IMG/VR virus record: IMGVR_UViG_3300010885_020608
Location: 1 to 30,419 of that record
Source: a virus
Length of the DNA: 30,419 nt
Strand: one strand, 5' to 3'
Shown: piece after piece, positions 10,707 through 30,419 of the stretch
Layout of the letters: each line of letters starts with the position of its first letter
How positions within the stretch are numbered: position 1 is the stretch's first letter
Position numbers and translations under genes: made by a program
Notes under the pieces: generated by a model
Database searches by the model: none
The model's input: only the letters and a program-made list of their open reading frames with translations
Told to the model about the DNA's origin: nothing

Positions 10707-11685
10707 GATACAATTTATACTACGAGACAGAAAAGCGCCTCGCAACGATTTTTGGACAATAGGATACGATCCGTCAAACGGTCAGATTCTGAGTATTGAA
10801 CCAGGTGAATTTAAATCTGCTGGTACACTGGTAATTGATTACGCCAGGGTACGAGATATCCTTGAAGGCAAACAAAATCAAAATGACTTTATAGTTGATT
10901 ATAATGAAAATCTAGGAGCCATTGATTTACTCGATTTAAGAAAGCCAAACGAATACAAGAAAAAACACGTATGGCAGGCTTGGCTCAGTGCCGGTGAACA
11001 TCAAGGAAGTATATTAAGTCCAATCAAGATAACGTTATTCAATGACTCGGGAATTCTCCGAGTAGAGGCCAGTAGACAGTGGACCACTAGAATAAAAGAA
11101 AATATTGACCACGGCAACATTACAGATGACTTTTTTCTTTTCATAACAGATTACGAAGATCCTCATTTGTTATTTGATAAAGTACAAGTATCCATTGACG
11201 ATATTATCAATAGGGGATTTTGGGAAAAACGATTGTGGGCATTTATGAATCATGCACAGGTGCAATCAATCTTATATGGAAATCAGCGTATACGAATCAA
11301 CATGAGTCCGATAGCAGATTCGTTGTTCTTTACCAGGGCAAGATCACATTTTCCTTACAGTGGAGTCAGTGACGAACAAACAACACTGAGCCACAATGGC
11401 GCTGGCAAGCATATTTCTGTTTACATCAAAGATGGAAGATTATGGGCACAGAGCCACTATGAAAAAGGATCTCCAATTGATGGTCTAATAGGAGATTTGA
11501 AAATTGCATTGTTAAAAGCAGATGATCCTGCTTACTTTGAGGCATGGTCGGCCATGCCAGCCCTGATGCTTAGACAAGAAATTCCATTTGAAATTTATTC
11601 CGATTGGCCGCACAGCACCCCTCCGCAACTGTTATATAAAGCTAATAACATTGATATCGGAGTAATTAATGAAAACCCCAATTAA
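10699..11685 (+). CDS. unknown protein, GTG start
   Basis: 328 residues. I chose the GTG at 10699, which overlaps the upstream stop by eight bases (GTGGATGA); an upstream in-frame ATG at 10672 would make a longer overlap inside the previous gene. The sequence mixes an N-terminal region (DEIQFILRDRKAPRND) with an all-beta middle and a C-terminal part containing HISVYIKDGRLWAQSHY. I see no known catalytic motif, signal peptide or membrane segment. The high Asp and aromatic content and beta strands fit either a binding protein or a sugar-active enzyme. It ends 17 bases inside the next gene, so it belongs to the same operon as the flanking glycosyltransferase-like genes. Confidence 0.45.
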   Translation: MDEIQFILRDRKAPRNDFWTIGYDPSNGQILSIEPGEFKSAGTLVIDYARVRDILEGKQNQNDFIVDYNENLGAIDLLDLRKPNEYKKKHVWQAWLSAGEHQGSILSPIKITLFNDSGILRVEASRQWTTRIKENIDHGNITDDFFLFITDYEDPHLLFDKVQVSIDDIINRGFWEKRLWAFMNHAQVQSILYGNQRIRINMSPIADSLFFTRARSHFPYSGVSDEQTTLSHNGAGKHISVYIKDGRLWAQSHYEKGSPIDGLIGDLKIALLKADDPAYFEAWSAMPALMLRQEIPFEIYSDWPHSTPPQLLYKANNIDIGVINENPN

Positions 11686-12640
11686 CGAGTTTGACATTGT
11701 GTTTATCAGTTATGATGAACCCAATGCAGATGAGAACTATGCTGACTTACTAGAAAAGTGTCCCTGGGCCAAACGCAGTCATGGAGTCTATGGCAGTGAT
11801 GCTTGCCATAAGGCCGCGGCAGCATTGGCAGAAACAGAACGATTCATTACTGTGGATGCAGACAACAAAGTACGCCCTGAATTCTTTGAATTAGAATTGG
11901 ATTTAACACAGTTTGATCGTAGTGATGTATTGTCATGGTCTGGTAAAAATGTTATCAATGGTTTGGTTTACGGCAATGGTGGCGTCAAACTTTGGCCCAA
12001 AAAAGTTGTAGAACAAATGCGTACACATGAAGCAGTTGATTCGGGCGCAGGCGCAGTGGACTTTTGTTGGGATATTCATTATCATCAACTTAACAATATC
12101 TATAGCGATGTATACAATAACTCCACTCCCTATCAGGCATACAGAGCAGGATTCCGTGAAGGTGTTAAATTGGCATTGCATGGCGGACAGCCAATGGACT
12201 GGCGACAAATCGCTGACAAGAACAATTCTAAAAATCACAGTAGACTACTGGTATGGATGAGTGTTGGTGCAGATACATTAAATGGACTTTGGGCCATGTA
12301 CGGCACACGTTTAGGTTGTTACATGACAAATATTAAACGTGATTGGGATTATACTCTTGTGCGAGATTTTGAATGGCACAATCAATTTTGGGCCACCACA
12401 GTTATACCACAATTTGCAGGTAATGAAGTGACATGTCCAATACTAAAATATTCTTACAGCAAAACAAAGCTGTTTGAAGAAACATGTCGTTTAGGAAAAA
12501 TCCTACAACAAGATTTGCGTTTAGACATTGCCGAACTTGATGAAGCAGGCAGCCGGTTCTTTAAGGCCAGTTATTTTAATCCTATCAGACTTGGTCCAAC
12601 AGTTAAAGAAATAAACACTGAACAATTTATTATAGAATAA
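11669..12640 (+). CDS. GT-A-like glycosyltransferase, paralog A
   Basis: 323 residues; GGAG lies about eight bases before the ATG. First of three tandem paralogs. The N-terminal strand DIVFISYDEPNADEN opens a nucleotide-sugar binding fold. Asp-Ala-Asp at residues 63-65, in the strand RFITVDADN, is the likely metal-binding DxD. A conserved block follows: NGLVYGNGGVKLWPKK (about residues 97-112), DFCWD (131-135), and YQAYRAGFREGVKL (about 154-167), all shared with paralog C at 13501. No membrane segment. Acts presumably in the cytoplasm on a sugar donor; donor and acceptor are not predictable from this sequence. Proteins of this pattern occur in marine phages without an assigned role. Confidence 0.55.
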   Translation: MKTPINEFDIVFISYDEPNADENYADLLEKCPWAKRSHGVYGSDACHKAAAALAETERFITVDADNKVRPEFFELELDLTQFDRSDVLSWSGKNVINGLVYGNGGVKLWPKKVVEQMRTHEAVDSGAGAVDFCWDIHYHQLNNIYSDVYNNSTPYQAYRAGFREGVKLALHGGQPMDWRQIADKNNSKNHSRLLVWMSVGADTLNGLWAMYGTRLGCYMTNIKRDWDYTLVRDFEWHNQFWATTVIPQFAGNEVTCPILKYSYSKTKLFEETCRLGKILQQDLRLDIAELDEAGSRFFKASYFNPIRLGPTVKEINTEQFIIE

Positions 12641-12641
12641 T

Positions 12642-13514
12642 ATGTTAGATGTATTTTTTATTACCATGGGCGAAGAAGGAAGCGAGTCAAATTGGACACG
12701 TTTACTTAAATTTGCTACAGCGGCTCAGCGTGTTGAAAATGTGAAAGGCATATACGAAGTACACAAACGCTGTGCCGAACTTAGCAACACTGAAAACTTT
12801 TGGGTAGTTGATTCAGACGCTTGGATACTAGATGACTTTGACTTTGATTTTGTGCCAAGTCAAGATGTAAAGAGATATAATGTTCCAGAAAATGAATGTG
12901 TATTGGTCTGGCCTAGTCGTAATCCAGTGAATGATTTGGTTTATGGCTACGGTGGAATTAAACTATTTCCAAAAAAACCATTCTTAGAAAAACGCAAATG
13001 GGAAGTTGACCTGTCAACCACAATTGGTAGAGCATCTTTTAGTATGACACAAGTTAGTTGCATAACAAAGTTTAATACAACACCACAGTCGGCATGGATA
13101 GGTGCATTTAGAGAATGTACCAAATTGGCATCTCTGTCGTTGATTAAGTCAAGAGTAAGTCGAGCAAAACTATATCAGCAAATTGACTTGGAGAACTTAG
13201 CAAATTATGTGGCCACACAGTCATGGGAAGATGATAAAAAATCAAATTATAGAAAAGCTCAAAGTAGAATCATAATAGAAAGATACCTGGAAGAATCAAA
13301 CATAATAACATACTGGAACGACATTGTTGAGTGCGGTGAGCGTAGATTTACCTGGTGTACTGTTGGAAATGACAGACCAAATGGAGAATATGCAATTGAT
13401 GGTGCCCGTTTAGGCACACAGTTTGGGTTGATGTACGGAAACGACAACGAACAATTAACAAAGATCAACAATTGGGATTGGCTAATGGAGGAATTTAACA
13501 ATGTCTATGTTTAA
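12642..13514 (+). CDS. GT-A-like protein, divergent paralog B
   Basis: 290 residues, starting one base after the upstream stop. It shares the paralog layout: N-terminal strand DVFFITMGEEGSESNW, Asp-Ser-Asp at 57-59 in a FWVVDSDA strand, NDLVYGYGGIKLFPKK (about 97-112) and a shortened AWIGAFRECTKL block. It lacks the DFCWD motif of paralogs A and C; that region reads SFSMTQVSCITKFN instead. It may therefore use a different acceptor, or be catalytically weak while keeping the metal-binding DxD. It is shorter than its neighbours and its 3' end overlaps paralog C by 14 bases. The paralogy is read from the sequence; the loss-of-motif consequence is inference. Confidence 0.5.
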   Translation: MLDVFFITMGEEGSESNWTRLLKFATAAQRVENVKGIYEVHKRCAELSNTENFWVVDSDAWILDDFDFDFVPSQDVKRYNVPENECVLVWPSRNPVNDLVYGYGGIKLFPKKPFLEKRKWEVDLSTTIGRASFSMTQVSCITKFNTTPQSAWIGAFRECTKLASLSLIKSRVSRAKLYQQIDLENLANYVATQSWEDDKKSNYRKAQSRIIIERYLEESNIITYWNDIVECGERRFTWCTVGNDRPNGEYAIDGARLGTQFGLMYGNDNEQLTKINNWDWLMEEFNNVYV

Positions 13515-14457
13515 CAAAAAATTTAAATCAGTTCCAATGTTTGAAATACCCGTGGTATTCCTAAGCTTTGACGAACCCAATGCAGATTCAAACTGGGAAC
13601 GATTAAAAAAATCAGTACCGCATAATAATATTGCAAGAGTGCATGGCGTAGTCGGGTTTGATACGGCTCATAAAACCGCAGCCGCACAATTTTCTGATTC
13701 GCAATATATCATAACAGTTGATGCAGACAATATAGTTGATTCTGCATTCTTTAATAAACTTACACCACCAGGCATGGATGGGTATGTTAGTTTTACCTGG
13801 GGAGGCCGCCAATATACCAATGGTCTCATGTACGGCAATGGTGGTTTAAAGATGTGGAGCACAGAACATCTTGCCAATATGAAAAGCCATGAACTTGCAG
13901 ATGCTGAACGAGATGCTGTAGATTTTTGTTGGGACTTCACAAGATACAAAGAAATGCCAGGTTGTTTTTCTACAGTATACACCAATGCTAGTGCTTATCA
14001 AGCATTCCGAGTAGGTTTCCGAGAAGGTGTTAAACTCAGTATGGAACAGGGAGTAGTTGTACCTTTTGACAAATGGTCAACTAAAATACATGCCGCAAAC
14101 TTTCAACGTTTGATAACATGGATGACAGTGGGTGCAGATGTTGAAAATGGTATATGGAGTGTGTACGGTGCAAGACTAGCAGTAAAGTTATTACAGTATA
14201 CTGATTTTGATTTTGTAAACATACGAGATTATGCTTGGTTTAAAGATTTCTTTGCAGAACAGTCTGCAGTTGATCCTGTCAAAGCAAGCAAGAGCATTGG
14301 TAAACAACTTAGCAATGGACTAGGATGGATACTGCCAGATTTAGATGCAGATCAAAGTTTATTTGTTAAAATGACACAATTGCATCCAGAAAAACCTCTT
14401 ACGTATGAAGATGTTAAGTGGCGTACCAATCTAGGCATGTATGGATGGTTTAAATGA
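13501..14457 (+). CDS. GT-A-like glycosyltransferase, paralog C
   Basis: 318 residues; the start is supported by GGAGG nine bases upstream, inside the end of paralog B. It is clearly related to paralog A: VVFLSFDEPNADSNW, Asp-Ala-Asp at residues 74-76 (IITVDADN), NGLMYGNGGLKMW (about 107-119), DFCWD at 141-145 and YQAFRVGFREGVKL. A second conserved Trp-Met-x-Val-Gly-Ala-Asp segment occurs in the C-terminal half of both A and C. No membrane segment or signal peptide. Probably transfers a sugar from a nucleotide donor; the tandem arrangement suggests the three enzymes add successive residues or act on related acceptors. Overlaps the next gene by four bases (ATGA). Confidence 0.55.
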   Translation: MSMFNKKFKSVPMFEIPVVFLSFDEPNADSNWERLKKSVPHNNIARVHGVVGFDTAHKTAAAQFSDSQYIITVDADNIVDSAFFNKLTPPGMDGYVSFTWGGRQYTNGLMYGNGGLKMWSTEHLANMKSHELADAERDAVDFCWDFTRYKEMPGCFSTVYTNASAYQAFRVGFREGVKLSMEQGVVVPFDKWSTKIHAANFQRLITWMTVGADVENGIWSVYGARLAVKLLQYTDFDFVNIRDYAWFKDFFAEQSAVDPVKASKSIGKQLSNGLGWILPDLDADQSLFVKMTQLHPEKPLTYEDVKWRTNLGMYGWFK

Positions 14458-15671
14458 GCGAAGTGTACCAGTTAAATGACTACAGGAGATTGGAGTTATC
14501 TTTAATCTACTACACTGATGAAATGTTTGGTTTTAATAAATGCCTACACCATTATCAACAATGGTTAACATCCAGTGCAAGTCAGCAAGAACTTGAAAAT
14601 CTTATAATCGAAGTAGGCAAAGAACATTTTGTTGATTTGTATCCGCTGTTAGATGCAATCAAAAACAACAATAACGATACCATATGGGTAATGTTAGAAA
14701 AGCTGGTTGAAATTGGCCCTTATGTACCAGCTGAATGGAACTCCAATCAGATCAAATTATCACCGGGTGATCCTGAAATTTTATCGTTGTTTAGAAATCA
14801 ATTAACGTACGAAGAAAAACTTCCAGTGTTATGGAAGTTAAGCAAGTGGGTGTCAGACAATAAAGAAATAAACAAAAATCTAGTTGATCCATTGAGTGTA
14901 TTGGCATATGCAATGGAAAAGATCAATGAAAGTCGAGTAAATTTTTATAAAGTGTTTGATTTGTTGGAAATATTTTTTGGTAATGAAACATTGCTGTCGT
15001 GTGTTATACGCGAAGACATAAGAGAGTTTATACGAGCAATTGGTAGATACAATGTAAGCAAATGGCACGAACTTGAAGTGTTGGCAGAAGGAATCTTAAC
15101 AAATCAAAATTTGAATTGGATCGATGCACTCAGCAGAAACCAAGTCAAAAGCAAACTTTGGCTACTGGAAAAACTACAAGAATATAGGTTAGAAACTAAA
15201 CAATCTGCAAATCTATTGTCAAACTCTCAGGCCACTGTGGTTGTTGGTGGATGGGTAGGTATGTTGCCGTATCTTGCAACAAGTAAAAATTTAAGATTGG
15301 GTAAAATTATCAATGTTGATATAGATGAGTCGTTGCATAATGCATCAGTTATTTTAAATCAGGACATTATAGCCAAATATCAGCATCTGACAGAAGATAT
15401 AAAAAAGTTTGATTTTAAACAATTTAAAAACTTATTGGTAATAGACACCATTGTTGAACATTTTGTCAATCATGGAGAATGGGTATCAACACTACCCAAG
15501 GGCACTACTGTTATATTACAAGGCAACAACATGTTTGATGTTCCAGACCATGTCAATTGTCATCATACATTAGAAGAATTTGTCAGCTCTTGTGGGCTTG
15601 CCAATATACTTTGGGCCGGAGAATTGATATTATATAAGTGTACACGCTTTATGGCAATAGGCACAGTATGA
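14454..15671 (+). CDS. two-part protein with C-terminal SAM methyltransferase-like domain
   Basis: 405 residues. Residues 1-245 are helical and acidic with no family I recognise. Residues 258-400 fit a class I methyltransferase core: a glycine-rich first loop VVGGWVG (263-269), a second strand ending in an acidic residue (INVDIDE, Asp289), then LLVIDTIVEHF and a TVILQGNN strand near 352-359. In the family, the glycine loop and the acidic residue bind S-adenosylmethionine. The position between glycosyltransferase-like genes and a 2OG oxygenase suggests it methylates a sugar, lipid or protein made by this block; the substrate is not known. It overlaps both neighbours by four bases (ATGA at each end). 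Confidence 0.55.
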   Translation: MSEVYQLNDYRRLELSLIYYTDEMFGFNKCLHHYQQWLTSSASQQELENLIIEVGKEHFVDLYPLLDAIKNNNNDTIWVMLEKLVEIGPYVPAEWNSNQIKLSPGDPEILSLFRNQLTYEEKLPVLWKLSKWVSDNKEINKNLVDPLSVLAYAMEKINESRVNFYKVFDLLEIFFGNETLLSCVIREDIREFIRAIGRYNVSKWHELEVLAEGILTNQNLNWIDALSRNQVKSKLWLLEKLQEYRLETKQSANLLSNSQATVVVGGWVGMLPYLATSKNLRLGKIINVDIDESLHNASVILNQDIIAKYQHLTEDIKKFDFKQFKNLLVIDTIVEHFVNHGEWVSTLPKGTTVILQGNNMFDVPDHVNCHHTLEEFVSSCGLANILWAGELILYKCTRFMAIGTV

Positions 15672-16186
15672 AACAACGAGTAGGTAAAATTTCATCCAAC
15701 ATAGATATTGCTCGATTAAAACTAGAAACTAAATCTCTCATTGAACGCAATAATTGGGACATATGGAAACTGCAACAAGTATCATTGCAAACCAACGGTG
15801 ATGATGATTGGAATGCCAGCATAGGTTCGCGACCAGATCAATTGGAACAACAATGGAACATCATACATCCGCAATTGGCTGGTACCTGGTGGGAAGATTT
15901 TTTTAAAAGTTTGCCAATGCCTGTGTATCGCAGTAGATTAATGATAATGCATCCTAGAACTTGCTATAGTATACACTCGGATTTAAATCCTAGATTACAT
16001 ATTGCAATCACTACAACCAAGCAGGCCCGTTTCATTTTTACTGACCCGCCTCAAATAATTCATTTACCTGACAATGGTACGTTATGGTGGGTTGATACCC
16101 GCGAAGAACATACTGCAATAAATGGAAGTATGGGCCATCGCATACATTTGGTCATGTGCTTGGCTAACAACGACACTGATCATTAG
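15668..16186 (+). CDS. 2OG-Fe(II) oxygenase, aspartyl/asparaginyl hydroxylase-like
   Basis: 172 residues from the ATG in the ATGA overlap at 15668; a longer form from 15638 would extend deep into the upstream gene and is less likely. The double-stranded beta-helix oxygenase core shows the iron-binding facial triad: His103-x-Asp105 in CYSIHSDLNPR and a distal His148 (EEHTAING), with Arg158 in HRIHLVM as the probable 2-oxoglutarate anchor. The Arg-x-His after the HxD (R109, H111) and the His-Thr-Ala-x-Asn spacing match aspartyl/asparaginyl beta-hydroxylases. It should hydroxylate an amino-acid side chain, free or in a protein, using oxygen and 2-oxoglutarate. The substrate is unknown. Followed by a 12-base gap. 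Confidence 0.65.
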   Translation: MKQRVGKISSNIDIARLKLETKSLIERNNWDIWKLQQVSLQTNGDDDWNASIGSRPDQLEQQWNIIHPQLAGTWWEDFFKSLPMPVYRSRLMIMHPRTCYSIHSDLNPRLHIAITTTKQARFIFTDPPQIIHLPDNGTLWWVDTREEHTAINGSMGHRIHLVMCLANNDTDH

Positions 16187-16198
16187 ATACATACATGC

Positions 16199-16858
16199 AT
16201 GAGTCTCGAAGTCAAAATAACAAGTGCAGATGATTTTGGGAAGTACAGAAATGCTTATCTTGTATTTTTAAAGAAAATTGCACAAACAAAAAGCCCAGCA
16301 TTTGCCAATATGGGAACAAACCCTCCTGCTGGTTTTTTGTATCTGGTAGATAACTTGAAAAGATGGACCACTAATAGTGGTCAAATCGCCCTGTTATTTG
16401 ACACCCAAGAAGATTCCATGGTAGGAATTTGTGCAGTTGAAAACTGCTACATATCCAATGAATTGTCCTCTGGTGGCAATAGATGCTGGTTATTACCAAA
16501 GTATAGACAAAACAATGAAATGTCAAAATATCTACTCCGGGCTGATATGGATTGGTCAGTGAAAAGCAATAAGGCTGGAATGTTGTTGACTTTCAATGAT
16601 TACAATGTTTGGATCTACAACACTATTGTCAAACTTTCAACCAATTCGGGTTCTACATTGGGAACTGTATGGAGCGACTGGTGGGATGATTGCATTGCAC
16701 TACCTAGAAAAATTAGATTACATAATACTCCACAATGGGCAGTGATCAAACCTGTTGACAAGAGCAGATGTATAGAATTATCATCAGAATTAGATAAAAA
16801 ATATGGAGTAAGAAATACTCCTTTTATACGCAAAGAAAAAGATGTCGTCAATAATTAA
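16199..16858 (+). CDS. GNAT-like acyltransferase
   Basis: 219 residues. The start lacks a clear ribosome-binding site, so translation may depend on re-initiation from the gene ending 12 bases before. The middle follows the N-acetyltransferase order: a strand IALLFDT, then a turn and strand VGICAVENCYI (about 75-85), a strand with WLLPKYRQNNEMSKYLL (acyl-CoA loop and helix, about 97-113) and MLLTFNDYN. The acyl-CoA-binding loop Arg/Gln-x-x-Gly/Asn-x-Gly is degenerate here (YRQNNEMS). Residues 130 onward are Trp-rich (WSDWWDD). It overlaps the next gene by 17 bases. Likely transfers an acyl group to an amine; alternatives are a non-catalytic GNAT fold. The acceptor is unknown. Confidence 0.45.
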   Translation: MSLEVKITSADDFGKYRNAYLVFLKKIAQTKSPAFANMGTNPPAGFLYLVDNLKRWTTNSGQIALLFDTQEDSMVGICAVENCYISNELSSGGNRCWLLPKYRQNNEMSKYLLRADMDWSVKSNKAGMLLTFNDYNVWIYNTIVKLSTNSGSTLGTVWSDWWDDCIALPRKIRLHNTPQWAVIKPVDKSRCIELSSELDKKYGVRNTPFIRKEKDVVNN

Positions 16859-17795
16859 CACAGAAAACAATCATCTTATATATTATTACAATGATGATGT
16901 TAATCAGCGTTGGCGTTATGACAAGCATGATACTACTCACATGCGAGTAGGTGGATGTACAAGACGACCATTTAGTTTCCGTGCTGAAATCATACGTAAT
17001 GCTCGAGCAATAATGACAAACTATCCAGATCTGACAATTTTTATGAGTGGCGGGCTGGACAGTGAAATTGCGTTAAGGGCTTTCTTAGAAGCTGGGCTGA
17101 AACCTAAATTAACAACCATACGTTTTCCTGATGGCGGCAACGAACATGACATTGGTCCAATGTTAAATCTTGTTAAACATTTTGGTATGACTTGTGATGT
17201 AATAGATTTTGATATAAATGAATTTGTAGAATCTAGCGAGTGCTACGAAGTGGCCAAAAGATACCAATCATACAGCTTATACCAGCAGGTACTACTTAGA
17301 GTTGCCGAAGATTTTAATGCTCCAATGATCACCATTGATGAAATTGAACTTGAAAAAATACCAAGTATAAATTGGGACACTGGCAAAACATCAATGGGCT
17401 GGATTTTTTTAAAGAAAGAAGATCAAGACGGAGTATGGAGAAGATTCAATGACATTACAGGGATACCAGCCTTGAACAATTTCTATTCATATACACCTGA
17501 ATCAATGTTGGCATTCTTAGATTTGTCAACAGTTGATGACTTGATTAACGATCGTATTCCAGGCAAATTAGGTTGGACCAGCAGTAAACTAAAAATATAT
17601 GGCCACACTGGATTTACATTTGCACCTCGAGTTAAATTTACAGGTGTAGAAAATTACATGCATCTATGGAATCAAGTACAATACAATATTGCAGAACACT
17701 TGGGTGAGATGTTGCCAAGAGGCTATGGAATACCAGCACTAGAACTAAGAGATAATTTAAGAGCCGGAAAGGAATCAACATGTCATATAATTTAA
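16842..17795 (+). CDS. stand-alone PP-loop ATPase, asparagine-synthetase-type
   Basis: 317 residues. SGGLDS at residues 69-74, in the strand TIFMSGGLDS, is the ATP-pyrophosphatase (PP-loop) signature of asparagine synthetase B and related amide-forming enzymes; it adenylates a carboxylate. The glutamine-hydrolysing N-terminal domain of asparagine synthetase (Cys2) is absent: the first 60 residues are a different region with YYYNDDVNQRWRY. A basic-aromatic C-terminus ends in CHII. Without its own ammonia source it would need free ammonia or an amine, or act as an adenylate-forming or thiolation enzyme. It is bracketed by two GNAT-like genes that overlap it by 17 and 16 bases, so the three are probably co-translated. 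The product is unknown. Confidence 0.65.
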   Translation: MSSIINTENNHLIYYYNDDVNQRWRYDKHDTTHMRVGGCTRRPFSFRAEIIRNARAIMTNYPDLTIFMSGGLDSEIALRAFLEAGLKPKLTTIRFPDGGNEHDIGPMLNLVKHFGMTCDVIDFDINEFVESSECYEVAKRYQSYSLYQQVLLRVAEDFNAPMITIDEIELEKIPSINWDTGKTSMGWIFLKKEDQDGVWRRFNDITGIPALNNFYSYTPESMLAFLDLSTVDDLINDRIPGKLGWTSSKLKIYGHTGFTFAPRVKFTGVENYMHLWNQVQYNIAEHLGEMLPRGYGIPALELRDNLRAGKESTCHII

Positions 17796-18418
17796 AAATA
17801 TTAGAAGAAGACGACCTTGAATTGATGGTGCAAACCTCTTTGGAAATTTATGCCAAAGCTGAGCCTGACAAATATCCCGACTTCAAAATTACTCAAGATC
17901 CTGAAAGAGAAGATCGTTTCCGTAAGTTTTACAAGTTATTTGTAATGCCATCTAGATTTAACAATCACAATGTTAGAAGAGCATTTGGACTGTACAATAG
18001 CAATGATGAATGCGTTGCACTAGTTGGAGTACGACGTTGGGGACACATTCCAAGTTGGTCTGTCAGCTGGTTGCTCAGTGCCAACAAGGGTGTTAAATTT
18101 ATTCCGTTATTTAGAATCATCATGGCTGAATTGTGCAAATTTCACGAAGAAGCCAATATGAATGAATTTTTTGTTACATACCCAACAGACAGGGAATCAG
18201 CATACAGTAGAATCATGTTGCCGTTTCGCGAAAAATATTTTACATTTGTTGAATGTACTGTGTCTAAAGGTGAGCGTCATGCGTACGGATTTATCCATGA
18301 ATTAATGGGCGGAGTACTACATCCGCATGATATGACGTTAAGAAGATATATATTGCGTAGAGACAATACTGAGCCAGAATCGGCAGGCGGTCAAGCAATT
18401 AGGAAGAAAAAAGAATAA
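17780..18418 (+). CDS. GNAT-like acyltransferase, second
   Basis: 212 residues; AAGGA lies seven bases upstream of the ATG, inside the previous gene. It has the GNAT order with an N-terminal ILEEDDLELMVQTSLEIY helix, a strand near FGLYNSNDECVALVGVRR (about 69-86), a SWLLSANKGVKFIPLFRII stretch (acyl-CoA loop and helix, about 97-115) and FFVTYPTDRESAYSRIM. The C-terminus is basic (RRYILRRDNTEP, ending in RKKKE), which could hold it on a nucleic acid or on a membrane surface. It is only distantly like the first GNAT-like gene at 16199. Overlaps the desaturase start by one base (TAATG). Substrate unknown; the neighbouring desaturase makes an acyl substrate conceivable. Confidence 0.45.
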   Translation: MSYNLKILEEDDLELMVQTSLEIYAKAEPDKYPDFKITQDPEREDRFRKFYKLFVMPSRFNNHNVRRAFGLYNSNDECVALVGVRRWGHIPSWSVSWLLSANKGVKFIPLFRIIMAELCKFHEEANMNEFFVTYPTDRESAYSRIMLPFREKYFTFVECTVSKGERHAYGFIHELMGGVLHPHDMTLRRYILRRDNTEPESAGGQAIRKKKE

Positions 18419-19320
18419 TGTCAAATATTAAAGAGTGGTTAATCACTCAAGCTGATTTATACAAAAAAACAAAACAAGTTCCATACATATTGGCAATTTG
18501 GTTTCCTTATCATATTATGGCCGCGGTGGCCATTGCGTATGCAATTGCAACTGGATGGAGTTGGTGGTTGCCATTGACTGCTGTATGCGGATGGGTGCTA
18601 CTGGATGGAGTCGGTAACAATTTGACATTACATCGATTCTTGAGTCATCGTAGTTGGCAACCTAGAAAGTGGATGGAACCATTTTTATTATGGGCCGCTG
18701 TCATGGTTGGCGAAGGTAGTCCGTTATGGTGGGCGGCATTGCATCGTGGGCATCATCATAAAGTAAGTGACATCACCGGTAAAGATATTCATACGCCTGT
18801 TGGCAATGGCTGGTTGCACAGTTACATGGGCTGGCAATTTGGTATTACACAAAATAGCGTGAGTTTTAGATATGCAGTTGATTTATTACGCGATAAACGT
18901 GTGGTATTTTGTCATGAACATTACAATAAAATTATCTATGCAACATTACTGTCAAGTTGTTTGTTGTTTGGATTACAGTTTACAGTATGGTTTTTTGTTA
19001 TTGGTAGTTTGATGAGTCTCCATGCAGACGGGTTAGTAAACACATTTGGTCATGTACCAGCGGCCGGCTACAGAAATTTTGATATCAAAGATTGCAGTAC
19101 AAATGTATGGTGGATTGGTTATTTTCATTGGGGAAGTGGCTGGCACAATAACCACCACCAACGAGCAAGCAGTTTTGATTTTGGAACAAGTGTCAGTGGT
19201 AGACCACATGAGTTTGATCCTTGCATGATCTTAATGATACCTTTTGCATCCTTTGCGGAAATTAAAAGATTGTGGAGTTTGCGTAAAGATGCTATAATGA
19301 ATAAAAAGGAATTAAAATGA
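18418..19320 (+). CDS. acyl-lipid/acyl-CoA delta-9-type fatty acid desaturase
   Basis: 300 residues, close to the usual size for bacterial desaturases. All three histidine boxes are present: HRFLSH (72-77), HRGHH (109-113) and HNNHH (243-247), which bind the di-iron centre. A NTFGH segment (208-212) and IHTPVGNGWLHSYMGW after the second box match the delta-9 stearoyl-CoA desaturase family. Hydrophobic stretches at about 23-66, 84-100 and 175-202 fit four membrane passes. It introduces a double bond into fatty acyl chains using oxygen and an electron donor supplied by the host. It starts in a TAATG overlap with the GNAT-like gene and ends in an ATGA overlap with ThyX, so it is in a true operon. 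No missing key residue is seen. Confidence 0.85.
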   Translation: MSNIKEWLITQADLYKKTKQVPYILAIWFPYHIMAAVAIAYAIATGWSWWLPLTAVCGWVLLDGVGNNLTLHRFLSHRSWQPRKWMEPFLLWAAVMVGEGSPLWWAALHRGHHHKVSDITGKDIHTPVGNGWLHSYMGWQFGITQNSVSFRYAVDLLRDKRVVFCHEHYNKIIYATLLSSCLLFGLQFTVWFFVIGSLMSLHADGLVNTFGHVPAAGYRNFDIKDCSTNVWWIGYFHWGSGWHNNHHQRASSFDFGTSVSGRPHEFDPCMILMIPFASFAEIKRLWSLRKDAIMNKKELK

Positions 19321-20012
19321 ATGTCAAACTCTTATCTTACAGTCAACCCACATCTGAATTCGCATCTATGGGCATTGACAACGTGCAAGAACTCATTGCA
19401 TACTGTGCCCGTGTCAGCAATCCCTCCAATCAACTCAATACAGACACCAGTGAAAAGCTCATACGATATCTTATTAAGCACCAACATTGGAGCCCGCTCG
19501 AAATGGTGTCCGCCTGCATCGAGATTACTACTACAAGAGATATTGCAAGACAAATCCTTAGACACAGAAGTTTCAGCTTTCAAGAATTCAGCCAGCGTTA
19601 CGCTGATCCAACAAAGGATCTCAGCTTTGTACTTAGAGATGCTCGCAAACAAGATACCAAAAATAGACAAAACAGTATAGAGTTAGATATTCAAAACAAT
19701 GACGCAGATCGTTTTCTTGCTTATCAATGGGAGCGTATGCAACAGCTGGTAATTGATCAAGCACTTGTTTCTTACCAGTGGGCAATTGAAAAGGGCATTG
19801 CAAAAGAACAAGCTCGAGCTGTATTGCCAGAAGGCCTAACTGAAAGCAGATTGTACATGAACGGAACATTACGTAGCTGGATACACTTTATTGAATTGCG
19901 TAGTGCCAATGGTACGCAATTGGAACACCAAGAAGTTGCATTGGCCTGTGCAGAAGTTATTGCAAAAATATTTCCAATGACTAGTGATTTAGTTAATAAT
20001 CAAAATGATTGA
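19317..20012 (+). CDS. thyX: flavin-dependent thymidylate synthase ThyX
   Basis: 231 residues; AAGGA precedes the ATG and the start overlaps the desaturase stop (ATGA). The ThyX signature RHRx7S is complete: RHRSFSFQEFS at residues 82-92, followed by QRYADP. The upstream HQHWSPLEM (55-63) matches the family's substrate-binding segment, and a C-terminal WIHFIELRSANGTQLEHQE region (about 188-206) supplies further dUMP- and FAD-contacting residues. It makes dTMP from dUMP with FAD, NADPH and methylenetetrahydrofolate, in the cytoplasm. It is common in phages and supplies thymidine for genome replication. It is the best understood enzyme of this block. The next gene overlaps it by eight bases. 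Confidence 0.92.
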   Translation: MNVKLLSYSQPTSEFASMGIDNVQELIAYCARVSNPSNQLNTDTSEKLIRYLIKHQHWSPLEMVSACIEITTTRDIARQILRHRSFSFQEFSQRYADPTKDLSFVLRDARKQDTKNRQNSIELDIQNNDADRFLAYQWERMQQLVIDQALVSYQWAIEKGIAKEQARAVLPEGLTESRLYMNGTLRSWIHFIELRSANGTQLEHQEVALACAEVIAKIFPMTSDLVNNQND

Positions 20013-20274
20013 AAGTATAAAAAAGTTTTTCAATTGGGGTTTATGGCCATGGAATTGGTGTGTTGGTTACGACCCAATAAGTGAAGGACGCATGGCACAC
20101 GAATATACCGATAGTGTTGCAAGAGACGAAATAACACGTAGGTATAATGAGTACTATCATAATCCAGCAACGCCATTGGTTAACCCAGAAAGGTTTGATC
20201 CATTGAATCCGCCAAAAGGTTGGGCATGGGACCCATATTATCATATATGGTTGATGAGAAAGGAAAAGAAATGA
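20005..20274 (+). CDS. small Trp-rich protein of unknown function
   Basis: 89 residues, starting eight bases before the thyX stop. Residues 8-18 are strikingly aromatic (FFNWGLWPWNW), followed by Cys-Val-Gly-Tyr-Asp; the middle has an Arg/Glu/Tyr helix (ARDEITRRYNEYYHN) and the tail reads PPKGWAWDPYYHIWLMRKEKK. Pro-Leu-Asn-Pro-Pro and Trp-Ala-Trp-Asp recall WW-ligand or membrane-interface segments, but no family is recognised. The C-terminus overlaps the MFS transporter start (ATGA), so it may be an accessory or interface partner of that transporter, which is inference from position. Confidence 0.5.
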   Translation: MIESIKKFFNWGLWPWNWCVGYDPISEGRMAHEYTDSVARDEITRRYNEYYHNPATPLVNPERFDPLNPPKGWAWDPYYHIWLMRKEKK

Positions 20275-21869
20275 CACGCAGAATGGAGTTTAAAATAATG
20301 ATGAATTTTTCAAAATCTTGGTTTTTCTGGGGAGGGTGTCTGGCTACAATATTAGGGGTAGCATTACACTTACCAATGTTCCTAATGGCCGATGGGTGCG
20401 GTTATATGCTGGCCGGAATGCCTATGAGCGGCGATCTGTATATCGGAATGGCGGCTATTGTTCTTGGTTTTATATCTTGTGCATACGGACTAATACCCGA
20501 TAACAATCAATCATATTCTAATACGACTATTCGTGTCGGCACCTTAGATGATGCACCAATAACTCGGGCACATATTGGTTTATTAATTGTGATGTCGTTG
20601 GCTATTATTATTGATGTAATGAAGCCAACTTCGTTATCGTTTATTATGCCATACATGGCCACGGAGTATGGACTTAAATCCCCACTTAATCCAGGAGGAA
20701 CTATCCCTGTATCATATTTGGCATTGTCGGGTATTACTGGCACAGTATTAGGATCTTTCTTATGGGGTTGGTTAGCTGATAAAATAGGTCGACGTGGATC
20801 TATTATACTTGCTGGAATTGGATTTATAGGAACGTCTATTTGTGGCACCATGCCAGATTTTTGGTGGAATGTTATAATGTGTTTCTTAATGGGAGTAGCA
20901 GTAGGTGGACTATTTCCTATCTGTTACGCACTACTATCAGAAGTTATCCCGGCAAGACACCGCAGTTGGATCATGGCTTTGATTGGTGCAAACATAGTCC
21001 TTGGTTATATTGTAACCAGTTGGGCCACTGCCGCTTTGGTACCTATTTACAGTTGGCGAATACTTTGGTTAATAGGATTTCCAACTGGTATTTTGTTTGT
21101 TATGTTACAGCGTTGGATTCCAGAAAGCCCAAGGTTCTTGGCCGCACAAGGTAGAACAGATGAAGCAGAACAGGTAATGGCCAAATATGGTGCTGTTATT
21201 ATTAAAGATACCGCACCAGATGGTAAAGTTAAAGATACTAGTCGTTGGATAGATTTGTTTAAACCTGGACTAACTGGTATATCTTTAAGTATTACTTTGT
21301 TAGGCTTGGCCGCAGGGTTTGTATTATTTGGATTTAATCTGTGGATACCCACTAACCTACGCAAGTTAGGATTTACCGAGGCTGATACTATTCTGCGTAA
21401 TGCGGCAATATTTGGATTGCCCATGTCGTTTATAGTAACAGGACTATACGGGTTCTGGAGTAGTAAGAAAACCATAATCTTACTAGCATTGGTTACAGCG
21501 TTGTCTTTATTAGGATTTGCTCTTGCCGGTAACTCCATTATTGAACATAGATGGTTATTGTATGTCTTATTAGTAACGCCAATTACCGGCATTAGTGCGT
21601 TAAGTTCTGTTTTGGGTGTGTATAGTTCTGAAATATATCCTACTAACATTAGATCTCGAGGTGCTGGATTGTCAGCTGGCATTGGAAAGTTTGGTGGCAT
21701 ACTTATAATTGCCATGACTACTTTTGCTATAGTGGCTCCAACCATCTTGACAATATCATTATTTGGTGCCATAACATTGACTATAGCAGTTTTATTAGTA
21801 GCCAAATACGGAACAGAAACACGCAATTGTTCATTGGAAGCAATAGATAATACAAACAAGGCAATATAA
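20271..21869 (+). CDS. major facilitator superfamily transporter
   Basis: 532 residues from the ATG in the ATGA overlap at 20271; a longer in-frame form from 20220 lies inside the previous gene and is unlikely. The family signature is clear: GWLADKIGRR at residues 166-175 (loop 2-3 motif A) and PESPRFL from residue 284 (end of the sixth core helix). Hydrophobic segments are frequent throughout. Two extra hydrophobic stretches, roughly residues 17-35 and 45-65, precede the twelve core helices, so about fourteen passes are expected. The PESPR motif and motif A resemble sugar, aromatic-acid and niacin-type porters; the substrate cannot be called. It should sit in the host inner membrane and exchange a small molecule using a proton gradient. 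A complete MFS transporter is unusual cargo for a phage. Confidence 0.85.
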   Translation: MTRRMEFKIMMNFSKSWFFWGGCLATILGVALHLPMFLMADGCGYMLAGMPMSGDLYIGMAAIVLGFISCAYGLIPDNNQSYSNTTIRVGTLDDAPITRAHIGLLIVMSLAIIIDVMKPTSLSFIMPYMATEYGLKSPLNPGGTIPVSYLALSGITGTVLGSFLWGWLADKIGRRGSIILAGIGFIGTSICGTMPDFWWNVIMCFLMGVAVGGLFPICYALLSEVIPARHRSWIMALIGANIVLGYIVTSWATAALVPIYSWRILWLIGFPTGILFVMLQRWIPESPRFLAAQGRTDEAEQVMAKYGAVIIKDTAPDGKVKDTSRWIDLFKPGLTGISLSITLLGLAAGFVLFGFNLWIPTNLRKLGFTEADTILRNAAIFGLPMSFIVTGLYGFWSSKKTIILLALVTALSLLGFALAGNSIIEHRWLLYVLLVTPITGISALSSVLGVYSSEIYPTNIRSRGAGLSAGIGKFGGILIIAMTTFAIVAPTILTISLFGAITLTIAVLLVAKYGTETRNCSLEAIDNTNKAI

Positions 21870-24425: not shown

Positions 24426-24974
24426 CTAATTGACAACAAGGTCAGGTTCAAATCTAATGCTCAATACTAGTCTATGATTAGGTGAATGGTTTACGACATT
24501 ATGTGGAACATCAACCCTAACAAACTTTGGCACATTGATTATGGTTGAATCAATGATGGTTGGTGCTTCGTTCCAGGTTAATTTTAGATATTGTAACTTT
24601 TCGTCTGTCTTTTCTTCAGTTAATGTGTAATTGCCACTATACCAATGCATAATGCCTAAATCAGAGTGCTCAAGCGGAATATTCAATGCATAGTTACTTG
24701 CATTGTCTCTTGCTAAATTATAACCATCTACATGTATGCGTATACTTGCTTCGGGCTTTACTCCAAAAATAATAACAGACTTTGGAATGCATTTTGGTTG
24801 TCCAAGTTTGTCTTTAAGTTGTTCGTATAGGAAGCTTTTTAATGCAAGATCTTTATCAAGACTTAATACTTTACTCATAATATGAGCTTCTTTTTTATTT
24901 ACATATGAGCTCATAATATGTGAACGGATTATCTCCTCACTGGCTCCTAAATCTACTGGTTGGTGTAATATCAT
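24426..24974 (-). CDS. third 2OG-Fe(II) oxygenase-like protein
   Basis: 182 residues from the ATG at 24974, which overlaps the upstream stop (ATGA) and has AAGG seven bases before it. In-frame ATGs at 24914 and 24878 are alternatives; an AGAAG precedes the latter. The beta-helix core shows His81-x-Asp83 (IRIHVDG), a strand YALNIPL, and VPHNVVNHSPNHRLVLSIRF, giving His158 as the distal iron ligand and Arg168 as the likely 2-oxoglutarate contact. The layout resembles aspartyl/asparaginyl hydroxylases and the gene at 15668, so the window holds three members. Substrate unknown. An 11-base repeat duplicates the HIMS stretch near its N-terminus. Confidence 0.55.
   Translation of the reverse strand: MILHQPVDLGASEEIIRSHIMSSYVNKKEAHIMSKVLSLDKDLALKSFLYEQLKDKLGQPKCIPKSVIIFGVKPEASIRIHVDGYNLARDNASNYALNIPLEHSDLGIMHWYSGNYTLTEEKTDEKLQYLKLTWNEAPTIIDSTIINVPKFVRVDVPHNVVNHSPNHRLVLSIRFEPDLVVN
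24874..24920 (-). repeat. 11-bp direct repeat at the oxygenase N-terminus
   Basis: CATATTATGAG (minus strand) occurs at 24874-24884 and 24910-24920, in phase and 36 bases apart, so HIMS is encoded twice. Each copy is embedded in an imperfect palindrome with CTCATA and TATGAG half-sites. It places two candidate start codons in identical surroundings. Confidence 0.5.
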
Positions 24975-25423
24975 ATTGTAACCTTATGTGTTTTGTATGT
25001 GCGGAATACTATATCCCAAATTGGAACAAACAATCCAAAGTTTTTATCGCTTTGTTTATGATGCACCAAATGCCATTGACCGCTGGTCAGTAAAGGATAA
25101 ATGTTAAAATTAGGATTGTGTTCTATTACTTCTTGTATAAAAGCGGCCCATACATAATAAAATACGGACAACCACCAATGGCCTGTAATCCAAGAAAAAA
25201 TCAAAGTAGGAACTACTTCAGTGATCCAAAGATCCATGGTACTGATCCAAGTATCATTGAACAAAAACAAATTGTTCCAGTGCCATTTTGTTTTGCCATG
25301 AATGTTTATGAATCTGTGATGATCCAGATGTGCATCTCGAGCAAAAGACGACACTCCGTGAATTATTCTATGTATCCAGTATAGGTAAAGAGTCCACAAT
25401 AAGAAAGCAAAAATGTATATCAT
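24971..25423 (-). CDS. fatty acid hydroxylase / sterol desaturase superfamily protein
   Basis: 150 residues, short for the family, but with all three histidine clusters: HRIIH (18-22), HLDHH (32-36) and HLVHH (118-122), plus the EHN segment (101-103). These bind a di-iron centre that hydroxylates or desaturates lipids, sterols or carotenoids. Hydrophobic stretches at about 2-16 and 65-98 fit membrane insertion. The short length and HX3H-then-HX2HH spacing are close to CrtZ-type carotenoid hydroxylases as well as small fatty-acid hydroxylases; the sequence does not separate them. It starts 22 bases downstream of the upstream gene with a CTAAATA motif just ahead, and overlaps the 2OG oxygenase by four bases (ATGA). 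Together with the desaturase at 18418, it suggests lipid remodelling. Confidence 0.8.
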   Translation of the reverse strand: MIYIFAFLLWTLYLYWIHRIIHGVSSFARDAHLDHHRFINIHGKTKWHWNNLFLFNDTWISTMDLWITEVVPTLIFSWITGHWWLSVFYYVWAAFIQEVIEHNPNFNIYPLLTSGQWHLVHHKQSDKNFGLFVPIWDIVFRTYKTHKVTI

Positions 25424-27198: not shown

Positions 27199-27477
27199 TT
27201 ATTCAGCTGTGCTGTCTTCGGTAACTTCTGCGGCTTCTGCGGCTTCTGCGGCTTCTGCTGGTGCAGGTGCTGGTTGATTAGCGGCTAAAAATGCGGCCAA
27301 CTTGTTGTATGTTGCGCCAATAACTTCCATTTCGCCAGCGCGATAACCACCACGTTGAGCACCTAACTCAATTGCTCCAGCTACTACTCGTAAATCTTGC
27401 AATGTTAAATTAACTGGTGCAGGCGCCTGAGCTTCTGTTGCTTCTGCTACTTCTGGTGTGCTTGTATCTTGTTCCAT
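27199..27477 (-). CDS. small conserved phage protein with Ala/Glu/Pro-rich ends
   Basis: 92 residues with GGAG ahead of the ATG. A core at about residues 22-66 (LTLQDLRVVAGAIELGAQRGGYRAGEMEVIGATYNKL) is a two-helix unit that I recall from small uncharacterised proteins of cyanophages and other marine T4-like phages. Both ends are low-complexity: an acidic N-terminus and a C-terminal run of Ala-Glu-Ala repeats, whose DNA is a tandem GCNGAA/GCNGCN run (27228-27262). Function unknown. Confidence 0.5.
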   Translation of the reverse strand: MEQDTSTPEVAEATEAQAPAPVNLTLQDLRVVAGAIELGAQRGGYRAGEMEVIGATYNKLAAFLAANQPAPAPAEAAEAAEAAEVTEDSTAE

Positions 27478-27541: not shown

Positions 27542-28282
27542 TTAGACCAAAAGAGTTTTGATATGTCTTAAGTTTTTATAGTCTAATATTGCATCAGACA
27601 TTGAATTTATACTTTCAATGAGCAAATTACGTTTATCTAGATCAGTCCATATTTTAGTTAATGGATGTGTCTCTACTTTGACAAAAAATAAACTTACCCC
27701 ATTGCCAAGTGGAGCAGTTGTTTGAGTTTCAGTTCTAAAATACAAGTCGGAAATAGTTGTTGGCATTTTGTTATCATGTTTTTCCGGTAACTGGCTTAAT
27801 TCTCCACTATTTGAAATAGTCCAAACATGTCGTATAAAAGGACCTTGATCAACATCGGCCATCAGTTCACTTATGCGTTGACTCATTTTAACCAACCGTT
27901 CACCATCGGCTACTGCTGAGTGTATAGCTGATAATGACATGCCTACTCTTTCGCTTGGCAACCAACTGCTAGGAAAACAGAAACAGATAGAAGACAATAT
28001 GCCATTATGCATGATTGCAATATCTTCTTCTAACTGCAATGCTAACTCTACTATGTTATCTGTTTCTGTTAAATTACAGTAATTAGATGCTGAACGCACT
28101 AGGTTGTTATCTAACGATTTGTAGAGTTTGTCATTGAACAAATCAAGTTCTGATCTTTTTGCTACAAGGTAACTTGGATTTGGATTAGTATTAAAAACTG
28201 GCCCATAGTTCTTTTCAAAACTAGGGCCAGTTGTGTAAGGTACCTTAACAGGAAAATTAATGTCTGCGTCCTGGGGGTACAT
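27542..28282 (-). CDS. DUF3445 / heme-dependent oxidative N-demethylase alpha-like protein
   Basis: 246 residues from the ATG at 28282, which lies 26 bases inside the VWA gene; a longer in-frame start at 28387 would overlap it by 131 bases and is unlikely. The pattern matches the DUF3445 (HODM alpha-subunit-like) family in order: FPSSW (103-107), then AIH at 119-121, RHVW (151-154) followed by an acidic loop, and FRTETQ (182-187) before a hydrophobic GVSLFFVKVET strand. In the family, members bind heme b in a PAS-like fold and oxidatively demethylate dimethylamine or similar amines together with reductase subunits, which are not present here. The end of the phage protein is short. The assignment rests on motif order from memory; the substrate and even heme binding are inference. 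Confidence 0.6.
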   Translation of the reverse strand: MYPQDADINFPVKVPYTTGPSFEKNYGPVFNTNPNPSYLVAKRSELDLFNDKLYKSLDNNLVRSASNYCNLTETDNIVELALQLEEDIAIMHNGILSSICFCFPSSWLPSERVGMSLSAIHSAVADGERLVKMSQRISELMADVDQGPFIRHVWTISNSGELSQLPEKHDNKMPTTISDLYFRTETQTTAPLGNGVSLFFVKVETHPLTKIWTDLDKRNLLIESINSMSDAILDYKNLRHIKTLLV

Positions 28283-29453
28283 AATTTGCAGTAATGCCAA
28301 ATGGTGCAGTAATATCTCGGCTGCCGTGCACAACAAACAATGTATCGCAGTAATCAGGATCACCCCAACTACCATAAGGATAACCATCTGTAAACATTAC
28401 CAGTTGATGAGGTTGGATATCGTTCTTGGTCATCCAATGCCATACACAATCAAAATCAGTACCACCGCCACCTTGCACATTGTATTCATTCATGTCGCGA
28501 CCATCATCTGATGTGAATATTTCCTCATTATAGGTATTTGTATCAAATGTGATAATGCGTACTTTGTAAGAAGTAAACTGATCTAATGCACCTTGTACCA
28601 TGCCCAAAAAGTCTGAGATCATTTCATTGCCGACTGAACCAGACGCATCTAATGCAACAACAATATCAAGTTCTTCTCCGGGTAATTGTCCAGGCATGAC
28701 TGCACCAGTGTGCCAGGCTTTGCGATTGGGTCGCATCCATGTGTAGTCGCTTTTAACACTACCACTGAATTGAATACGTAATAGGTCGCGCAAATCCATA
28801 ACAGGTGCAGTGATATCTTGTACAAGACGTTTGATATCACCTGGTGTATTGCCAGCGCCAGCATTTTTAGCAGATTGAATTACAGCTTCTTTCCACTCAT
28901 CACGTAAAGCTTTCTTTTCTTCTTCACTTAATTTTTTAAACTTTGGCTTGCCTTTGCCGTCTTTGCCTTCATCGCCATCTCCATCACCTTCACCATCCAT
29001 ATCAAGATGTTCGTCAAATGTCATTTGAATCTTGACAGCATTTTCCATCAAGTCGTCATACACTTCATCGGCTGTCATGCCCTCATACTTACGATCTGCC
29101 AAGATTGGTACTGTGGTAATTTGAGTACCAACGCCTTCTCTGATAAGCATATTGTTGATGATATAATCACCAGCCATGTTCCACACTTGTGGTTCTTTAT
29201 CGCCACGACGTGTCATGTGCTCAAATATAATGTGTCCAAGTTCATGGGCAAAACCAAAAATCATCTCGCCATCACTTAATTTACTAACAAACTCTGGGTT
29301 ATAGTAAAACTTGCGACCATCTGTTGCAATTGTTTTGCACCATTCTACTTCTTCTAATTTGAGGCGGGCGGCCAATGGACCCCAAAATGGATATTTTAAA
29401 AGCATACTAACACGGCTTTTAATCAGTTTATCTTTTGCTGGCATTTTAGACAT
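28257..29453 (-). CDS. VWA protein with N-terminal metallopeptidase-like domain (DUF2201 type)
   Basis: 398 residues; GGAG precedes the ATG and a consensus promoter lies just upstream. The N-terminal domain carries HELGH (70-74), a zinc-metallopeptidase motif, followed by an AGDYIIN segment (94-100), as in DUF2201. Residues 150-180 are an acidic Asp/Gly/Lys linker. The C-terminal von Willebrand A domain has the metal-ion-dependent adhesion site: DASGS (269-273), GGTDF (330-334) and FTDG (354-357). Such proteins pair with MoxR-type ATPases, here encoded two genes upstream (29808). In bacteria, related MoxR-VWA pairs such as NorQ-NorD and CbbQ-CbbO activate or load metal into target enzymes. 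Whether this one cleaves anything or activates the adjacent DUF3445 protein is unknown. Confidence 0.85.
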   Translation of the reverse strand: MSKMPAKDKLIKSRVSMLLKYPFWGPLAARLKLEEVEWCKTIATDGRKFYYNPEFVSKLSDGEMIFGFAHELGHIIFEHMTRRGDKEPQVWNMAGDYIINNMLIREGVGTQITTVPILADRKYEGMTADEVYDDLMENAVKIQMTFDEHLDMDGEGDGDGDEGKDGKGKPKFKKLSEEEKKALRDEWKEAVIQSAKNAGAGNTPGDIKRLVQDITAPVMDLRDLLRIQFSGSVKSDYTWMRPNRKAWHTGAVMPGQLPGEELDIVVALDASGSVGNEMISDFLGMVQGALDQFTSYKVRIITFDTNTYNEEIFTSDDGRDMNEYNVQGGGGTDFDCVWHWMTKNDIQPHQLVMFTDGYPYGSWGDPDYCDTLFVVHGSRDITAPFGITANYVPPGRRH

Positions 29454-29514: not shown

Positions 29515-29833
29515 TTGTTTTGTCTTTTGGTCCTGATAAATCCCACAACATGGCAACTTCTGGATCTCTAAACCAAACTAATTTCTTTGGTATAAAGTCC
29601 CAATCTAACCTTTTTAATTTTTGCAATCTGGCCCATGCGGTAACTTCATTGATTGTAGCTCCAACTGGATATGAACGGACGGACCAGCTCTTCCTTTGTT
29701 CACGGAGCCACTCGCTAACATCAGATGGTGTTGGTGGCTGGTCCGTCCAAACTGTTCGGGCTTCTGAGCCGTACATTATTTCTAGTACAGCCCAGTCCCT
29801 TGGCCTATTACTCGTCTGTGAGTAAGTTGGCAT
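29495..29833 (-). CDS. small protein between MoxR-like ATPase and VWA genes
   Basis: Up to 112 residues. The ATG at 29833 overlaps the end of the ATPase gene by 26 bases but has no clear ribosome-binding site; an ATG at 29776 (93 residues) is the alternative. Trp content is high (AVLEIMYGSEARTVW, VSEWLREQRKSW, NEVTAWARLQKLKRLDWDF). No recognisable domain, signal peptide or membrane helix. It may be a small accessory subunit of the MoxR-VWA pair, inferred only from position. Confidence 0.5.
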   Translation of the reverse strand: MPTYSQTSNRPRDWAVLEIMYGSEARTVWTDQPPTPSDVSEWLREQRKSWSVRSYPVGATINEVTAWARLQKLKRLDWDFIPKKLVWFRDPEVAMLWDLSGPKDKTIDNRLI

Positions 29834-30419
29834 AACGTTTGAAGAACTCTGGGAAGTTGCTCATTTTCTTACGATCAAAAACTACTTTATAGTTCTTGAG
29901 TACAGTATGAGCTCCCATGATAACCATTTCAGGTTCAAAATTGGTCATCATAAAACCAAGCCAGTTATCAGCACTCTTGTTAAAATCGTCTAACTTACCT
30001 GCTCGTTTACCTTCTTCGTAACGTGTACGAAGTTCGTAGCACAGGCTTACAACCATAGCATAAGCGGCAGATACTTCTTTGGATTTAAAAGTGGTAACTT
30101 TGCCTGATAGTACATCTTCAGGAGCAGGCAAGTCTGCGGCATGTTTACGATGGGCCATAAACTTGATGGCCATTCCTTCACCTACTAAACCAGCCACCAT
30201 GTCGGTATTGGCAGAGTCTGGCATGTCATCATCCAACATGTCACTTACAAAACTCCAAGTACGGGGTGTTGGAAATGCTCTATCATGTTGCGTAGGTTCA
30301 AAGTTATACAAATCACCTTTGAATTGTTTCAAGAAACCTACCACATGAGGATGGATTTCATTTGTAATGGCCCATTGTTCCCAGTCTTCAAAATCCACAC
30401 GGATTTCCAAGTGCATGAA
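29808..30419 (-). CDS. MoxR-type AAA+ ATPase, C-terminal part only
   Basis: 204 codons are visible, ending at 29808; the reading frame is still open at the window edge (a Phe codon precedes the Met codon at 30416), so that Met is probably internal and the start and the ATP-binding Walker motifs lie outside. The visible part matches the alpha-helical lid of MoxR-like ATPases: DFEDWEQWAITNEIHPHVVGFL, a DRAFPTPRTWSFVSDML segment with the sensor-2-type arginine region, and a final helical extension. In related proteins the complete enzyme remodels or activates a partner, usually a VWA-domain protein, which here is two genes downstream. The gene runs toward the VWA gene in the same direction. The assignment rests on the lid alone. 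Confidence 0.75.
   Translation of the reverse strand, partial: FMHLEIRVDFEDWEQWAITNEIHPHVVGFLKQFKGDLYNFEPTQHDRAFPTPRTWSFVSDMLDDDMPDSANTDMVAGLVGEGMAIKFMAHRKHAADLPAPEDVLSGKVTTFKSKEVSAAYAMVVSLCYELRTRYEEGKRAGKLDDFNKSADNWLGFMMTNFEPEMVIMGAHTVLKNYKVVFDRKKMSNFPEFFKRYANLLTDE

Follow-up and report, generated by a model that had tools for sequence, protein, structure and literature searches.

Heme-dependent demethylases and their phage relative

The alpha subunit of the heme-dependent oxidative demethylases (HODM) is a heme protein with a PAS fold, and its structure has been solved with dimethylamine (5lth). In bacteria, genes of the corresponding family, PF11927, share operons with genes for DmmA, for an FAD/2Fe-2S oxidoreductase and for a GcvT-type aminomethyltransferase. 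DmmABC turns dimethylamine into methylamine, and in the dmmDABC operon the PF11927 subunit is DmmC, DmmD being the GcvT-type protein (PMC5520151). The second group of enzymes that matters here is the pyruvoyl-dependent SpeD proteins. SpeDs of 117-122 aa from freshwater phages act as ornithine decarboxylases (PMC9992855), and a set of Q, T, F and Y residues is diagnostic of the SpeDC ornithine decarboxylases (ODCs), true AdoMet decarboxylases (AdoMetDCs) being marked by a proline (PMC10407285).

The DNA analysed here, called the window, is a stretch of 30,419 nucleotides. Its viral nature is shown by its being an IMG/VR virus entry and by a match of positions 1-6066 to the virion structural protein phrog_10938 (E=7.5e-114). 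The gene of interest and its neighbours are as follows.

27542..28282, minus strand: HODM alpha (PF11927)-like protein of 246 aa (Pfam, AF2, Foldseek and alignment with bacterial HODM alpha subunits)
28257..29453, minus strand: DUF2201 metallopeptidase-like/VWA protein (PF13203, E=1.6e-40; PF09967, E=1e-17; phrog_1314, E=3e-104)
29808..30419, minus strand: partial ATPase, MoxR-like by its position beside the VWA gene, truncated at its 5' end by the window boundary (phrog_1297, E=8e-40)
27199..27477, minus strand: small acidic Ala/Glu-rich ORF downstream of the HODM gene (weak match to phrog_13935, E=0.007)

The HODM-like ORF runs on the minus strand from an ATG at 28282 to a TAA at 27542, and its first 26 nt are shared with the end of the VWA gene upstream. 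The longest ORF with the same stop starts at 28387 and encodes 281 aa; homology begins only within the 246-aa version. The gene is kept in about 60 viral loci in IMG/VR searches, and dN/dS values of about 0.09-0.33 (for the pairs where they could be computed) indicate purifying selection on the family. A chance ORF is therefore excluded, and the gene is real.

PF11927 (HODM_asu-like) was the sole Pfam match of the protein (E=2.8e-24), with 86.4 bits where the cut-off is 25. In the PDB copy searched, the solved HODM alpha structures all belong to one sequence. On its own, the window protein found that sequence only at E=1.3 (5lte); a profile of nine phage relatives reached the same entry at E=0.006 and a profile of 30 family sequences at E=3.2e-6. 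A phmmer match to the chromodomain protein 2fw2 (E=0.53) and profile matches to an NS5 polymerase (E=1.4) were dismissed as chance. An AF2 model built from the 30-sequence family alignment had a mean pLDDT of 92.6 and a pTM of 0.88. Its best Foldseek match in the PDB was HODM alpha 5lth (E=2.8e-10, query-normalised TM 0.77, rmsd 4.0), followed by 5lte (E=3.8e-10). These two were the only significant matches, the next being a PAS domain, 6qpj, at E=0.007.

Nine residues (D87, H121, R151, W154, E185, Q187, F199, Y235 and K236) are the same in all 39 sequences aligned, phage and bacterial, those of DmmC type included. Their equivalents in a bacterial HODM alpha (L198) are, in the same order, D156, H194, R224, W227, E266, Q268, F281, Y317 and K318. 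The original prediction had drawn on the order of four motifs, which lie at residues 103-107 (FPSSW), 119-121 (AIH), 151-154 (RHVW) and 182-187 (FRTETQ) as it had read them, and the family and the PAS-like fold that it expected are borne out by the Pfam match and the structural comparison, and supported further by the residues shared in the alignment. Its label 'DmmD-like', on the other hand, was misplaced, the name for the PF11927 subunit being DmmC. That the protein belongs to the HODM alpha family in both sequence and fold we regard as practically certain. H121, matching H194 of the bacterial protein, is the only invariant histidine in the 39 aligned sequences and the most likely candidate for a heme ligand. 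To judge from the conserved pocket residues, the phage protein very probably binds heme.

The likeness to HODM alpha (5lte, 5lth and 5lti; DmmC of DmmABC) thus extends to the Pfam family, the fold and the invariant H, R, W, E, Q, Y and K. There are also clear differences. At 246 as against about 340 aa, the phage protein is without the N-terminal part seen in the bacterial subunits, and its identity to HODM alpha in the structural alignment is only 15-16%. The phage branch has low identity to the DmmC-type proteins and is set apart from them by long branches in the tree. Moreover, neither DmmA nor an FMN/2Fe-2S reductase accompanies the phage protein as in DmmABC; in many phages it is a SpeD-type decarboxylase gene that is coupled to it. 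Searches for DmmA (PF22290), Fer2 (PF00111) and NAD_binding_1 (PF00175) found none of these domains in the window, just as had been claimed for the reductase partners, and none in 23-28 related viral contigs, several of which were 200-316 kb long.

Linkage to a SpeD-type decarboxylase

The neighbouring ORFs of 52 HODM-like copies (50 viral and cellular copies from the searches plus repeats, and the window) were clustered. A single recurrent neighbour emerged, an ORF of about 118 aa that in 27 of the 52 loci immediately precedes the HODM-like gene on its strand. It encodes a SpeD-type pyruvoyl decarboxylase (AdoMet_dc, PF02675; Pfam E values from 1e-17 to 1e-21). Clustered at 90% identity, the 52 HODM-like proteins fall into 30 groups, 16 of which include an adjacent speD, leaving about half of the groups without one. 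The two ORFs overlap by 8-11 nt in every one of the 27 pairs, and because of this overlap they are probably translated together. The genes outside the pair vary among loci.

All 27 partner sequences kept the equivalents of S63, H68 and C83 of the Thermotoga maritima enzyme, which serve pyruvoyl formation. They also carried Q, T, F and Y in the order diagnostic of SpeDC and lacked the (gamma-)Pro of AdoMetDC, the positions having been matched from the text of PMC10407285. Judged by these residues, the partner is likely to be an ornithine decarboxylase. In size (117-122 aa), in residues for self-processing and apparently also in ODC-type residues it agrees with the phage pyruvoyl-dependent SpeDC enzymes already described (PMC9992855, PMC10407285). 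What differs is the linked HODM-like gene, which goes unmentioned there: the terms DUF3445 and demethylase are absent from PMC9992855, and DUF3445 is absent from PMC10407285. Our literature search found DUF3445 in no phage paper. The kind of enzyme is known; the gene pair is new.

The window itself departs from this pattern, since the partner does not lie beside its HODM-like gene and none of the window ORFs scanned matched PF02675. The other HODM contigs without an adjacent speD had none elsewhere in the contig either. The enzyme therefore cannot depend strictly on a SpeD of the phage's own.

The link was also approached from the side of SpeD. Among the 80 best viral SpeD loci, a HODM-like gene was found no more than 1.5 kb downstream in 35 and was missing there in 45. 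The association is common, not obligatory. A second arrangement, in which HODM and speD genes stand tail to tail with ends overlapping by 16-19 nt, occurred in three SpeD groups (L067; L068-L071; L101). In L068 (4341-6126) the HODM gene of the second subfamily that converges on speD has a gene for a UvdE UV-endonuclease behind it.

The SpeD proteins are 80% identical between arrangements and 78% within the first, whereas the HODM proteins are 34% identical between them and 57% within the first. Because SpeD is equally similar across the arrangements and HODM far less so, the pair is probably not one inherited block; the association appears, from these identities, to have formed twice, with two HODM subfamilies. 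The presence of the same SpeD family beside two HODM subfamilies in turn favours a functional link, which we consider probable for the relatives of the window protein.

These neighbourhoods bear on the suggestion, made in the original prediction, that the virus could change methylated-amine metabolism. The protein might be a genuine N-demethylase of dimethylamine or a relative, an auxiliary metabolic gene that frees nitrogen or C1 units with the help of host DmmA/DmmB or other reductases. Its family and the residues shared with DmmC would suit such a role. However, none of the 52 neighbourhoods held a link to a methylated-amine gene, and the recurrent partner is SpeD, which points to polyamines. 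Bacterial DmmC has DmmA, reductase and GcvT genes beside it, yet neither DmmA nor a reductase was found in the phage contigs searched, and the low identity and long branches described above separate the phage proteins from the DmmC type. Nothing that we found supports the methylated-amine role, and we hold it to be improbable.

The strict overlap of 8-11 nt could be read in another way, for it would fit a stoichiometric complex. The HODM-like protein might be a PAS protein that binds heme or another ligand but has lost its catalysis, and that regulates the SpeD-type decarboxylase in response to O2, NO, redox state or a polyamine; or it might be a structural subunit of that enzyme. PAS folds are mostly sensors, and no reductase partners were found in the contigs searched. 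With the heme PAS sensors FixL, DosP and Aer2 the phage protein indeed has a PAS-like fold in common, and probably the use of heme. Its sequence and its best structural match, however, place it in the enzyme branch and not with the sensor PAS domains. The R, W, E, Q, Y and K of the enzymatic HODM alpha are all kept, and a pure sensor would not need them; many groups, moreover, have no adjacent speD to regulate. We regard a sensor or subunit as rather unlikely.

Neighbours and relatives of the window gene

In the window the HODM gene is preceded by the VWA gene and the partial ATPase gene. It might be thought that it belongs with this pair, the pair acting as a chaperone that loads its cofactor. 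The 26-nt overlap with the VWA ORF would agree with this, and so would a divergent viral HODM-like protein (L197, 33-4504; 25% identical to that of the window), which lies downstream of a MoxR-type AAA lid (PF17868) and a VWA-like ORF. Yet six other HODM contigs carry their DUF2201 VWA gene far away from the HODM gene, and the pair consists of broad phage families (phrog_1314 and phrog_1297). The adjacency in the window is probably incidental and a chaperone role for the pair very improbable. The label of phrog_1314, 'HNH endonuclease', looks wrong for the product of 28257-29453, which is a DUF2201 metallopeptidase-like/VWA protein.

In the tree the window protein groups with two viral sequences that do have speD (L015 and L016) and with two sequences from Acidobacteriota metagenome-assembled genomes (MAGs); the fork is drawn open, with support of 85/85. 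In the window lineage, either the adjacency to speD has been lost or speD lies outside the fragment. The two MAG sequences (L013 and L014), about 51-52% identical to the window protein, stand between genes for an M28 peptidase and an SDR protein, and look like the outcome of transfer between phage and host. They were the only close cellular relatives, and PF11927 occurred in just one of 297 Acidobacteriota genomes. With cellular copies so rare, the search for a cellular donor yielded no clear host. A tblastn search of isolated phage genomes (INPHARED) and plasmids with the window protein gave no match, the viral structure library BFVD gave nothing at E<=0.001, and PHROGs has no family for the HODM-like protein.

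Several other genes of the window deserve mention. On the plus strand, 9133-18418 contains about a dozen successive ORFs. Most have no Pfam match, and to the eye they resemble glycosyltransferases, GNAT-like and ATP-pyrophosphatase-like proteins. The series includes an Asp/Asn hydroxylase (PF05118, 15638-16186) and is possibly a cluster for glycan or surface modification. It is followed on the same strand by a fatty acid desaturase gene (PF00487) that overlaps a ThyX gene (PF02511) within 18418-20012, and by a phage MFS transporter gene at 20220-21869 (PF07690, E=1e-33; phrog_2034, of unknown function). Desaturase homologues were found near the HODM-like gene in about nine related phage loci. 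At 24971-25423 on the minus strand lies a member of the fatty acid hydroxylase superfamily (PF04116, E=2e-13), another iron oxygenase near the HODM-like gene.

Putrescine-type bases occur in the DNA of some phages, and the substrate might accordingly be an amine that is part of a nucleotide or bound to a macromolecule, for instance such a base or a surface glycan that carries polyamine; the amine would then come from SpeD. ThyX, the Asp/Asn hydroxylase-like protein and the glycosyltransferase-like ORFs of the window would be in keeping with this. However, none of the window's genes was recognised as coding for a DNA-hypermodification enzyme, and the neighbours of the HODM genes vary between phages. 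We regard modification of this kind as quite improbable.

Proposed function and its meaning

The best reading of these data, to which we would give an even chance, is that the protein is a heme-PAS oxygenase whose amine substrates belong to the polyamine pool. It would represent a stand-alone, phage-specific branch of the HODM alpha/DmmC family with a single PAS-like catalytic domain, in which heme b would be bound through H121 and the conserved pocket residues R, W, E and Q put to use. Amines would be oxidised with O2 or peroxide. Because the phage brings no reductase, we propose that electrons come from host carriers, unless peroxide takes their place. The polyamine pool is the likeliest class of substrate because SpeD recurs as the partner; the reaction may be oxidation or oxidative N-dealkylation, of putrescine or of secondary amines such as spermidine or homospermidine, and would not serve growth on dimethylamine. 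The phage of the window presumably uses the same pathway, despite there being no adjacent speD in the 30-kb fragment.

More tentatively, the pair may be seen as a two-gene phage module, with translational coupling between a pyruvoyl-dependent ODC and a heme-PAS oxygenase for which the polyamine made by the ODC is the substrate. This would be a heme-dependent modification of polyamines for which no counterpart has been described, and the module would have come together at least twice, from two subfamilies of HODM; we put it forward as a possibility somewhat short of probable.

The known role of the HODM alpha family is the breakdown of dimethylamine. If the proposal is right, a phage branch without reductases that is tied to an ODC would mean that amines other than dimethylamine also serve this family as substrates, and phages would do more to polyamines than make them. 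The linkage in many related viruses to a gene that probably serves putrescine synthesis suggests a hitherto undescribed way in which phages change polyamine chemistry in the cells they infect.
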